NCBI RefSeq assembly: GCF_004766055.1
Contig: NZ_SPQR01000002.1
Span: 186,001-250,000 of the forward strand
DNA from: Desulfosporosinus sp. Sb-LF
GTDB lineage: Bacteria; Bacillota; Desulfitobacteriia; Desulfitobacteriales; Desulfitobacteriaceae
Direction: 5' to 3'
Length of the DNA: 64,000 nucleotides
Within the stretch, counting starts at the first letter, position 1. Each line of letters starts with the position of its first letter. The notes under the pieces are model-generated. The model saw only the letters and a program-made list of their open reading frames with translations, did no database searches and was not told where the DNA came from. Below are positions 4,536 through 13,666 of this stretch, one piece after another. The translations under genes were made by a program, and so were the position numbers.

Positions 4536-5066
4536 TTAAGTCTGAGGTTGAAGCAACCCATAGTCCCCATTGTTGCGAAGATATACCACATTCATTTCTT
4601 GGCTTTCTGCATTTGTAAACACAAAGAAATTATGTCCCACAAGATTCATCTGCATGATTGCTTCCTCTACAGACATAGGCTTCGCTGGAAATTTCTTATT
4701 CCGAACAACTTCCTCATGGGGTTCATCATTCGCAATGACGGGTTGTTTAGGTTCATGATCCTTCAAGACCTTCGAGCGCATCCGCTTATTTATTCGTGTC
4801 CGATATTTATCGATTTGGCGTTCCAACTTCTCAACGACCATATCAATGGAAGAATACATATCTTCAGTTTCTTCTTCCCCGCGTAATATCATACCATGGA
4901 TTGGGGCTGTTACCTCTACCCGATGTCGATCGCGCTCGACAAGCAAGGTGACCTGAACGTCCATGAACTCATCAGAGTATTTTGCCAACTTGCCTACCCG
5001 TTTCATAACATACTCTTTAAGTGCATCCGTCAGTTCGATATGTTTACCACGAATAATAATGTTCAT
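4536..5066 (-). CDS. hpf: Ribosome hibernation promoting factor, long form
   Basis: Long HPF binds the 30S decoding region through its N-terminal domain and joins two 70S ribosomes into inactive 100S dimers through its C-terminal domain. The 176-residue product shows the N-terminal beta-alpha fold (MNIIIRGKHIELTDAL), a charged linker near residues 95-120, and the C-terminal dimerisation domain with FPAKPMSVEEAIMQM and HNFFVFTNAES. The length is typical of the Firmicute long form. ATG follows AAAAGGGGG. A sigma-H-like promoter lies upstream (5103-5129) and a hairpin terminator downstream, so it is probably monocistronic and induced on entry to stationary phase. Confidence 0.96.
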   Translation of the reverse strand: MNIIIRGKHIELTDALKEYVMKRVGKLAKYSDEFMDVQVTLLVERDRHRVEVTAPIHGMILRGEEETEDMYSSIDMVVEKLERQIDKYRTRINKRMRSKVLKDHEPKQPVIANDEPHEEVVRNKKFPAKPMSVEEAIMQMNLVGHNFFVFTNAESQEMNVVYLRNNGDYGLLQPQT

Positions 5067-10420: not shown

Positions 10421-12007
10421 TTATTTAGTTGCTTTGTCTAACGACTTTAGGAAGTAAACCCCTGTCGGATGGATTTTGAACCCTGTGATACTTTTGCTTG
10501 CAGCAGCCATATCCATTGAGCTACTTATGAATACCCATGGTGCATCTTTGACGAGAATCTCTTGGGCTGCGGTGTAATCCTTGATTCGCTCATTTTTATC
10601 GGAGCTTTGTTGTGCCTTCATGAGTAATTCATCATATTGAGGATTATTGTATTTCGCATCGTTTAAACGGCCATTGCCAATTTGACTAGAGTGGAGTAAG
10701 GCATACAAGAAGTTATCAGGGTCTCCATTATCTCCTGTCCAACCATACAGATAAGCTTCTGCTTTGCCGTTCTTTACATTTTCTTTGTGTTCTTTCCAAG
10801 CCGCAGAGGTGATTTTCACGGTGACCCCAACTTGTTTCAAGTATCCCTGAATCGCCGTGGCCAAGCTATCTCCTCCAACTGAATTGTAAGGGCGTGGATT
10901 TGGATAGCTGATGAGTTCGAAGCTTAAGTTATTATCGTAACCAGCTTCTTTTAAAAGTTGTTTGGCTTTCGCCTGATCAAAGGGGTAAGGTTGCAGATCT
11001 TTGTCATAACCGAAAAGAATTGAAGGCAAGGGTCCGTTAGCTAATGCAGCATTGCCCTTGTAAAGGCTTTTCACCATTTCTTCTCGATTAATAGCCATGG
11101 AAATTGCTTCACGAACTTTAGGATCATTAAAGGGTTTACGGTCTGTGCGCAATCCCATATAGTTGATATTCATTCCCGGAGAAGTGCTAAAGTTAAGTTT
11201 TGTATCAGCTTTTAATTTTTCAACATCATTCGGATCGATGCCATCAATGATATCCACTTCGCCAGCCAAGAGTTTATTGGCTCGTACGGAGTTTTCTTTG
11301 ACCACTTCAAAGACTAGTTTGTCGATTTTCGGCTTGCCATCCCAATAGTCTTTATTGGCTGTGAGAGTGATCTTAGAATCCTTTTCCCAACCAGCAAAAA
11401 CAAATGGGCCTGTGCCAACAGGGTTTGAACCAAAGTCTTTACCGAATTTCTTAATAGCTGTCGGAGAACCCATAGGAGCACTCAACGACATTGCAAGGTT
11501 CAAGAGAAATGGGGCATATGGATTCTTTAGGACAAATTTAACGGTGTTCTCATCCACAGCAACGACTTTGTCCACCATGCCAAGCGTAAAGTCAGCATAA
11601 GGCATGTCAGCCGTTGGATTCGGTGGGAGTTGTCGTTCTACATTAAACTTTACCGCTTCGGCATTAAAGGGCGTTCCGTCGTGGAATTTAACCCCCTTGC
11701 GAAGTTTGAACGTCCACTCTTTTCCATCTGCAGACGTGCTCCATTCTGTTGCTAGAGAAGGTTCTACCTCAGTGGAACCTTCTTTGTATCGTACCAAGGT
11801 GTCAAAAATATTAGCCACAACTTTTGCCGATTCGCCATCCTCAATCATGACTGGGTCTAGGCTGATTGAGTCTGCTCCACGTGCCAAAATCACCGTTTTG
11901 GCTCCTGCGGCCTGGCCTGATCCTGTGGTGGTGGTCCCGCCGCATCCAGTGAGCAAGGTGCTCACTAGAAAAAGGGAGGCGAGAACCCCTGCCAATCTTC
12001 TTCTCAT
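10421..12007 (-). CDS. Peptide-type substrate-binding lipoprotein (family 5)
   Basis: This 528-residue receptor belongs to the DppA/OppA/NikA family. The signal peptide ends in LLTGC (Cys 22). The family motifs SISLDPVMIEDGES, WTFKLRKGVKFHDGTPFNAEAVKFN near residue 95 and the C-terminal IQGYLKQVGV region are visible. ATG 12007 follows AGGAGG and a sigma-A-like promoter lies at 12056-12084. The following two genes encode its permeases, so it is the receptor of that importer. DPDNFLY near residue 435 is common in dipeptide and heme-binding members, but the ligand is not certain. Confidence 0.92.
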   Translation of the reverse strand: MRRRLAGVLASLFLVSTLLTGCGGTTTTGSGQAAGAKTVILARGADSISLDPVMIEDGESAKVVANIFDTLVRYKEGSTEVEPSLATEWSTSADGKEWTFKLRKGVKFHDGTPFNAEAVKFNVERQLPPNPTADMPYADFTLGMVDKVVAVDENTVKFVLKNPYAPFLLNLAMSLSAPMGSPTAIKKFGKDFGSNPVGTGPFVFAGWEKDSKITLTANKDYWDGKPKIDKLVFEVVKENSVRANKLLAGEVDIIDGIDPNDVEKLKADTKLNFSTSPGMNINYMGLRTDRKPFNDPKVREAISMAINREEMVKSLYKGNAALANGPLPSILFGYDKDLQPYPFDQAKAKQLLKEAGYDNNLSFELISYPNPRPYNSVGGDSLATAIQGYLKQVGVTVKITSAAWKEHKENVKNGKAEAYLYGWTGDNGDPDNFLYALLHSSQIGNGRLNDAKYNNPQYDELLMKAQQSSDKNERIKDYTAAQEILVKDAPWVFISSSMDMAAASKSITGFKIHPTGVYFLKSLDKATK

Positions 12008-12055
12008 TCCTTTTCCTCCTTCTGTTAATGGACTATTAAGATCCTGTTAAGATGT

Positions 12056-12084
12056 AATCTATGTATTCTATATACTTAAGTCAA
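12056..12084 (-). promoter_or_regulatory. Promoter of the dpp-like operon
   Basis: TTGACT (12084-12079) and TAGATT (12061-12056) are 17 bases apart on the minus strand, about 50 bases upstream of the binding-protein start. The -35 matches five of six and the -10 four of six consensus bases. Confidence 0.55.
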
Positions 12085-12105
12085 TTCCTGCTTTAAGAAG
12101 CTAGG

Positions 12106-12377
12106 TTATCCTCAAAAATCGTACTTTTTTGTTTTAATTTACGATTATTATACAAATAATCTCATTTGTTATGGTTAATACTAGATTTTAAATGTATCGA
12201 TTATGTCTATATGATAGCACAACATCCTTTTGACCAACTGCTACCGAATCGAGAAATGAAGACTATAAATCATCTAAAGTATAATTAATTTATCCCCCGA
12301 AGTTACACACAGGTAGGTGTGTATAATGTGGATAAGTGTTGTGGATACCCTTAATTAGCTTGAAGATCTGTGGATAA
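12106..12377. promoter_or_regulatory. Cluster of DnaA boxes
   Basis: The plus strand carries TGTGGATAA at 12327-12335 and 12369-12377, exact inverses of the DnaA box TTATCCACA, and TGTGGATAC (one mismatch) at 12340-12348, all in the same orientation within 51 bases. A further TTATCCTCA (one mismatch) lies at 12106-12114 in the opposite orientation, and ATCCACA at 12430-12436. The surroundings are AT-rich. No dnaA, dnaN or rpmH is near, so this is probably an ectopic DnaA-binding cluster rather than the chromosome origin. The rest of the 12085-12477 gap holds no gene I can support. Confidence 0.65.
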
Positions 12378-12477
12378 CGGTGTTGAAAACACATCAACTT
12401 TCTCTGTCTTTGTTAGATGATCAACCGAGATCCACAATAACTCCGTAATACAAGGTACTCAAGGTTAATACAATAAA

Positions 12478-12510
12478 AAGCATTGATCAACTAAACGTCA
12501 ACCAATGCTT
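12478..12510 (-). terminator. Terminator after zinc-ribbon gene
   Basis: Arms AAGCATTG (12478-12485) and CAATGCTT (12503-12510) enclose a 17-base loop; five U residues follow on the minus strand. It ends the fabZ-comF-zinc-ribbon gene group. Confidence 0.65.
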
Positions 12511-12559
12511 GTCAATTCATAATAATTTAATTCAATATACTTATACTTTAGTACTTGAA

Positions 12560-12862
12560 TTAATATTGTTCGCGAGCTGGGCGGTGGTGCTGATAGCACT
12601 CACGGCAGTATACTGGACGATCGGATGTCGGTTGGAAAGGAACTTGAGTTTCTACTCCACAGTCCGCACATACGACGGTAAACATTTCGCGTGATCTTCC
12701 TTCTTGAGAGTTACGGCTTGCTTTGCGTGCGTTACGGCATTCGCGGCAACGTTGTGGTTCATTTTCGAAACCCTTTTCAGCATAGAACTCTTGTTCGCCA
12801 GTTGTAAAAATAAAAGTCGCTCCGCAGTCTTTACATACTAGATCTTTGTCTTCAAAGGCCAT
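12560..12862 (-). CDS. Zinc-ribbon domain protein
   Basis: The 100-residue product carries two zinc-ribbon-like modules: CKDCGATF with CRECRNARK in the N-terminal half (about residues 10-46), and CADCGVETQVPFQPTSDRPV with YCRECY in the C-terminal half. This two-part architecture is a conserved small protein of Firmicutes often labelled a zinc-binding or CxxC protein; I know of no established function. ATG 12862 follows AAGGGG. It lies 63 bases after comFC and before a terminator, and TTATAAT-like sequence in that gap may give it its own promoter. The Cys spacing excludes heme binding (no CxxCH). Confidence 0.8.
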   Translation of the reverse strand: MAFEDKDLVCKDCGATFIFTTGEQEFYAEKGFENEPQRCRECRNARKASRNSQEGRSREMFTVVCADCGVETQVPFQPTSDRPVYCRECYQHHRPAREQY

Positions 12863-12925: not shown

Positions 12926-13666
12926 CTATTCACACGAAGGCACAAGTTTTTTTTCTAACCCAGCGGCTAAGCACAAGCCATAAATTTCATGTGCTCCGCT
13001 TTCTCGCAATACTTCTGCCACGGCCTCAAGCGTTGCCCCCGTGGTAGTTACATCATCGACAAGCCACATATTTTGCCCTTTAATATTCCCGGGTTTCCGT
13101 ACTATGAATGCACCTTTTAAGTTGAGCAGACGTTCCTGGCGGGAAAGAAGAACTTGAGATGATGTTGGCTCTATTCTCTCAACTCCTGGGATTATCGGCA
13201 ATCCCAATTCCCAGTGCAACATCGAAGCAATAACTTCTGCCTGATTAAAGCCTCGTTCCATTAAACGAGCTGCGTGCATTGGCACAGCCACTACCCCTTC
13301 GACGGGAGGTAGCTGATTAATGGCCCAATTTGAAAAAGGCCGAGCAATTTCAAGCAAGCGTCGAGGCTGTGCTTTGAATTTGACAGCATGAATAAACTCC
13401 CTTAATCCTCCGGAGTAATGTCCCCAGGCCACAATTCGATCAAGCTGTTTCGGCCCCTTTCCAGCTCCACAGTCGAGACAAAGAATATCCTCTGACATAA
13501 TTAATTTCCCGCACCCCCTACACCGACCGAGTTCGGGGTGAAGATAGTTTATCGTGCAAGATGGGCAAATTGGTCCGCGCTCCACGCCACAAAATGCGCA
13601 AGCTCGTTCGTCCGCATACCAAAGAGCACGGGTGATTTTGGTTGCTTCCTTCCAAAACCTCTTCAA
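12926..13666 (-). CDS. comFC: ComFC-like phosphoribosyltransferase-domain protein
   Basis: ComFC is needed for natural DNA uptake in Bacillus and has a phosphoribosyltransferase-like fold. The 246-residue protein starts with a Cys-rich zinc segment (CAFCGVERGPICPSC, then CRGCGKLIM and CLDCG) and ends with the PRPP-binding-like loop WLVDDVTTTGATLEA near residue 205. GHYSGGLREFIHAVKF is the family signature. Start is TTG 13666 behind AAAGGAG, five bases after comFA, so the two are translationally linked. Presence of the pair suggests a DNA uptake machine, though comE genes are not in the window. Confidence 0.9.
   Translation of the reverse strand: MKRFWKEATKITRALWYADERACAFCGVERGPICPSCTINYLHPELGRCRGCGKLIMSEDILCLDCGAGKGPKQLDRIVAWGHYSGGLREFIHAVKFKAQPRRLLEIARPFSNWAINQLPPVEGVVAVPMHAARLMERGFNQAEVIASMLHWELGLPIIPGVERIEPTSSQVLLSRQERLLNLKGAFIVRKPGNIKGQNMWLVDDVTTTGATLEAVAEVLRESGAHEIYGLCLAAGLEKKLVPSCE

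Follow-up and report, generated by a model that had tools for sequence, protein, structure and literature searches.

In Escherichia coli, datA is an intergenic group of DnaA boxes away from oriC that lowers initiation potential; its action depends on IHF and stimulates hydrolysis of the ATP bound to DnaA. DARS1 and DARS2 are small, fixed arrangements of DnaA boxes, also outside oriC, and DARS reactivates ADP-DnaA. Bacillus subtilis is without SeqA and, according to PMC13220808, without IHF and Hda. Deletion of six B. subtilis DnaA-box clusters (DBCs) leads to early initiation (PMC5295017, PMC13220808), and in these sources the evidence for extra-origin boxes in this species rests on that one six-cluster deletion strain. 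By the same account, no single extra-origin cluster of strong effect is known (PMC5295017) and about 10-fold overproduction of DnaA causes no over-initiation (PMC13220808), which together speak against a strong titration role. DnaA binds in vitro downstream of gcp (tsaD) and ydiF, with a Kd of 0.15 uM for ATP-DnaA, and 16-fold more of the gcp region is recovered with ATP-DnaA than with ADP-DnaA (PMC4447404).

Here we describe a cluster of DnaA boxes, cluster A, in a 64,000-nucleotide stretch of the Desulfosporosinus sp. Sb-LF genome (GCF_004766055.1, contig NZ_SPQR01000002.1, positions 186,001 to 250,000), referred to below as the window. Its kind, the extra-origin DnaA-box cluster, is already known. 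Like the B. subtilis DBC at gcp/ydiF it consists of dense TTATNCACA boxes in intergenic DNA outside oriC, and a sister cluster in the same genome (cluster B) also lies downstream of tsaD, which is gcp, a match made by gene; the cluster in the window sits in a comFC/zinc-ribbon-hpf neighbourhood. It resembles datA in having intergenic DnaA boxes away from oriC and DARS1/DARS2 in having a small fixed box arrangement outside oriC. As at the sda and ywlC promoters of B. subtilis, the boxes lie upstream of a gene, but the gene downstream of cluster A is not conserved. Rows 1-17 of Table 1 in PMC4447404, which list B. subtilis DnaA regions, do not include the comF-hpf site, and comF, yvyD and hpf are absent from the text; our searches of the open-licence literature, by title and abstract, turned up no report of this site, of the shared geometry or of its spread over at least 27 families. 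We consider it moderately probable, on the analysis below, that cluster A is an ancient group of DnaA boxes outside the origin which, like the B. subtilis DBCs, sequesters DnaA shortly after initiation.

Layout of the cluster

The cluster lies in the intergenic gap 12008-12559 (552 bp) between a zinc-ribbon gene and an SBP_bac_5 gene. The features, with offsets counted from box 2, are:

12369-12377, minus strand: DnaA box 1, TTATCCACA, exact; offset -42
12327-12335, minus strand: DnaA box 2, TTATCCACA, exact; offset 0
12318-12326, minus strand: DnaA box 3, TTATACACA, exact; abuts box 2 directly, offset +9
12303-12311, plus strand: DnaA box 4, inverted, TTACACACA, one mismatch; 6 bp past box 3, offset +24
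12290-12298, plus strand: inverted weak box-like sequence TTATCCCCC (GGGGGATAA on the minus strand)
12381-12389, minus strand: weak box-like sequence TTTTCAACA, 12 bp before box 1
12340-12348, minus strand: GTATCCACA, one mismatch; offset -13
12106-12114: outlying weak box TTATCCTCA, one mismatch
12428-12436: outlying weak box AGATCCACA, two mismatches
12475-12513, minus strand: terminator-like hairpin (by eye) between the zinc-ribbon gene and the cluster
12560-12862, minus strand: zinc-ribbon (treble-clef) protein gene, upstream of the cluster
12926-13666, minus strand: comFC-like gene, matching the ComF family model under its NCBIfam cut-off
10421-12007, minus strand: peptide-type substrate-binding protein gene (SBP_bac_5), downstream of the cluster, a variable neighbour
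4542-5066, minus strand: hpf (ribosome hibernation factor), next after the cluster where the transporter genes are missing

A sequence-only reading of the window had described two exact boxes (12327-12335 and 12369-12377) and one with a single mismatch (12340-12348), all in one orientation, in an AT-rich gap without a gene, and this description holds: the three boxes are on the minus strand, G+C is 31.0% in the gap versus 44.9% in the window, and the gap encloses no complete ORF of at least 80 aa. Rfam and tRNA scans of the window returned no matches. Correct for these boxes, that reading overlooked the abutting box at 12318-12326 and the inverted one at 12303-12311. The two weak boxes that it named further out, at 12106 and near 12430, exist with one and two mismatches, but they are unconserved, with equivalents at 3/25 and 2/25 loci of the genus (the window's own counted). 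The terminator-like hairpin that ends the zinc-ribbon gene is conserved among the genus loci listed (by eye).

Conservation within Desulfosporosinus

A full-length orthologue of the zinc-ribbon protein was obtained from 26 of 29 genus genomes; one locus (L036) ends early, leaving 25 for examination, the window's included and several of them from close relatives. We retrieved the loci by way of that gene, so this neighbour is constant by construction. The abutting pair (boxes 2 and 3) is present with 0-1 mismatches in 25/25 loci, and since the alignment is anchored on that pair, only the other elements count as independent evidence of conservation. Box 1 is found in all 25 loci, at -42 in 13, at -43 in 11 and at -44 in one, and it is exact in 16 and carries one mismatch in nine. 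The inverted TGTGNGTAA lies exactly 6 bp past the pair at every locus, each time with the same single mismatch, and GGGGATAA recurs at a gap of 19-21 throughout (20 exact, three with one mismatch, one with two and one with three). Within the weak sequence at 12381-12389, conservation of the TCAACA columns across the genus is 84-96%. One locus of the 25, the window itself, has a box where GTATCCACA lies, and no exact box lies outside the core between -150 and +300 in any of them.

The 90-bp cores of the 25 loci are all distinct sequences. Conservation is 100% in most of the columns that belong to boxes, and past about +47 column identity drops to 28-60%. Conservation in the same gap of relatives, the test that the sequence-only reading had named, thus gave a core kept at every locus amid drifting flanks. 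Beside the cluster, some genus genomes (L028, L029, L034, L037) carry insertions that look repetitive by eye, and their boxes are intact.

The gene downstream of the cluster varies across these loci: it encodes a peptide-type (dppA-type) binding protein, an amino-acid-type binding protein, or hpf, with a few ambiguous cases. The peptide transporter, which the sequence-only reading had named as a neighbour, is therefore incidental, and we dropped it as the cluster's target; the conserved linkage expected of a dedicated DnaA-regulated peptide-transporter promoter is not seen among the genus loci.

Conservation beyond the genus

How old is the arrangement? The site could be fetched for 14 of the 16 other genomes of the family. 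Within the same comFC/zinc-ribbon-hpf neighbourhood, the cluster is clear in six of these (G038-G042, G044), degenerate in one (G043) and absent from the same gap in seven (G029-G035; genera g2, g3 and g4). We then surveyed the surroundings of hpf in 80 outgroup genomes from 79 other families (one family twice), allowing up to two mismatches. Abutting boxes lie upstream of hpf in 27 of the 80 genomes, always with a pair on the hpf strand, and downstream of hpf in none of the 80, the search having covered 441 kb upstream versus 193 kb downstream, the latter probably mostly coding, with a few contigs ending early. The reversed motif is absent from both sides of hpf in all 80. No abutting pair was seen upstream of hpf in 53 of the outgroup genomes, some of which offer little upstream sequence. 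A comFC or zinc-ribbon match accompanies the abutting boxes at 19 of the 27 outgroup loci (our own count), and the boxes follow the zinc ribbon in named outgroups such as Caldicoprobacter algeriensis and HGW-Firmicutes-14.

Its presence in outgroups led us to abandon the view that the cluster is confined to Desulfosporosinus. Boxes near the same genes in many distant relatives suggest an old control site for the start of chromosome copying. At the same time, its absence from seven of the 14 family genomes, together with the 53 outgroup genomes in which it went unseen, indicates that the cluster is dispensable or replaceable. The idea of the sequence-only reading, a cluster outside oriC that may titrate or regulate DnaA, is supported as far as conservation goes, with boxes kept beyond their flanks at 25/25 genus loci and in 27/80 outgroups (absent in 7/14 of the family), but the outlying weak boxes do not share in this.

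Box density and sister clusters

Across the genome (4.27 Mb), exact TTATCCACA occurs 80 times, versus 16 for the reversed word. Seven pairs of neighbouring exact copies lie no more than 60 bp apart, where 0.09 were expected and at most two arose in 5000 trials, and these seven fall at four places: cluster A (comF), oriC, cluster B (C3:334 kb, tsaD/gcp) and cluster C (C5:267 kb, argH-pncB). The genome-wide count that the sequence-only reading had put forward as an outlier check thus singles out cluster A as one of four places with two exact TTATCCACA within 60 bp. On its contig, C2 (410,763 bp), cluster A scores 7.4 in 200 bp, second to oriC (13.4) alone, and random placement of the same boxes on this contig gave scores of at most 6.0 across 500 trials; several close boxes, above chance and outside oriC, are what characterizes an extra-oriC DnaA-box cluster. 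A further abutting pair at C4:40084 has no other boxes around it.

In cluster B, after tsaD (L133:8049-8222; C3:334048-334221), six exact copies of TTATCCACA fall within 174 bp, and its two abutting pairs lie at a distance of 97 bp. A box cluster follows tsaD in 16 of 20 genomes of the phylum, hand-picked and leaning to close tsaD relatives. Cluster C lies between argH and pncB (L134:7313-7427; C5:267312-267426) and also occurs in the family genera g2 and g3.

When sites are aligned on the pair, a box at -12 (TTATYAACA type) with at most one mismatch appears in 22/30 outgroup A sites and 21/36 B pairs, and one at -42/-43, at the same threshold, in 10/30 and 15/36, respectively. In Desulfosporosinus, the boxes of cluster C stand at -44, -12, 0 and +9. 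Searched with up to two mismatches, the array TTATNAACANNNTTATCCACATTATCCACA gave 104 matches in 71 of 149 genomes, and the reversed array gave none in the 149. Of these matches, 44 follow tsaD within 3 kb and run opposite to it without exception. Another 43 precede hpf within a limit of 6 kb, at distances of 131 to 3320 bp, and share its strand in every case. The other 17 comprise three beside comFC, four beside the zinc ribbon, two beside the gene for 5-formyltetrahydrofolate cyclo-ligase (a tsaD neighbour here) and eight elsewhere, for totals of 50 near hpf, comFC or the zinc ribbon and 46 near tsaD or its neighbour. These locus counts are not fully independent, because A and B sites from part of the genomes searched went into building TTATNAACANNNTTATCCACATTATCCACA; the independent evidence lies in the reversed control and the fixed orientation. 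The window's own copy differs from TTATNAACANNNTTATCCACATTATCCACA by six mismatches at best and so is not a match: it keeps -42, 0 and +9, but the -12 box is missing, with GTATCCACA at -13 instead.

At least three of the zinc-ribbon-side arrays (L390, L391, L402, L403) lie near FliS- or FliD-like proteins (by eye). The eight arrays away from comF/zinc ribbon/hpf and from tsaD (L388, L389, L392-L397) are possibly lineage-specific clusters.

Two gene-linked modules of similar geometry in at least 27 families point to clusters kept by selection. We offer tentatively, as a possibility, that these two ancient modules (boxes at about -43, -12, 0 and +9, in the comFC/zinc-ribbon-hpf neighbourhood and after tsaD) jointly form a general DnaA buffer in many families of the phylum, a Gram-positive counterpart of datA working through box geometry, not IHF. 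The geometry amounts to a spacing rule open to test with purified DnaA; the two modules provide a defined deletion pair for a clean test of DnaA titration.

Alternative explanations

The foremost alternative is a DnaA-responsive transcription site that represses or activates the downstream gene, be it the transporter or hpf, and so couples it to replication status, as at sda and ywlC. A start codon does follow the cluster, the arrays near hpf share its strand in 43/43 cases, and several B. subtilis genes are regulated by DnaA (PMC4447404). We nevertheless consider this explanation unlikely, in that the downstream gene is exchanged while the cluster stays, which argues against one dedicated promoter target, the distance to hpf is spread from 131 to 3320 bp, and the sister module, located beyond the tsaD 3' end, runs opposite to that gene.

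A site like DARS or datA, which would change the nucleotide state of DnaA and not merely hold it, seems improbable: the fixed multi-box geometry is what a defined DnaA complex would need, but B. subtilis has no homologues of IHF and Hda, according to PMC13220808. Nor do we give much credence to binding by a protein other than DnaA. DnaA binding is predicted here, and the fixed 12-9 spacing could fit another oligomer; against this, the DnaA box has the sequence TTATNCACA (PMC4447404), this genome carries that word in its oriC as well, and the sister locus matches by gene position a B. subtilis locus that DnaA binds, which makes another binder very improbable. A second or relic replication origin, as DnaA boxes in AT-rich DNA close to the main origin might indicate, is scarcely credible, since GC skew on contig C2 switches sign at dnaA alone, by which the cluster was ruled out as an alternative origin, and the trio-like repeats sit at dnaA-dnaN, with none seen by eye in the cluster sequence.

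Position relative to oriC

The sequence-only reading had placed the boxes far from dnaA, which is misleading: dnaA is at C2:318.9 kb, cluster A lies about 120 kb to the left of oriC on the same contig, and the skew flips from the 310-320 kb bin to the 320-330 kb bin. Four genomes of the genus have dnaA close to base 1 of a long contig, and in these the abutting pair precedes dnaA by about 105, 121, 124 and 138 kb, distances calculated from the coordinates on the assumption that the contigs are closed circles (the contig of the ~105 kb genome is the largest of three). This check of oriC proximity covers Desulfosporosinus. Of the marks of oriC (a GC-skew switch, an adjacent dnaA and an unwinding element with DnaA-trios), cluster A shows none, the trios as judged by eye.

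Between dnaA and dnaN, at about C2 320030-320080, a trio-like TACTACTATAACTACTA lies beside DnaA boxes. The DnaA-trio of C. difficile oriC2 resembles TACTACTATAACTACTA (PMC7561715), and the trio-like sequence points to a bipartite oriC like those of B. subtilis and C. difficile.

How sequestration might work

If cluster A does sequester DnaA, the following sequence of events may be envisaged. DnaA would bind the abutting pair and box 1 cooperatively. Lying about 120 kb from oriC, the cluster would be doubled very soon after initiation, and the extra sites could then take up active DnaA, helping to delay the next initiation. Cluster A would probably act together with its sister clusters at tsaD and argH-pncB, and an added effect on transcription of whichever gene follows it is conceivable.

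Flanking genes

Among named organisms, the top five relatives of the zinc-ribbon protein (12560-12862) are all from Desulfosporosinus, and this genome encodes four further homologues of the treble-clef protein.
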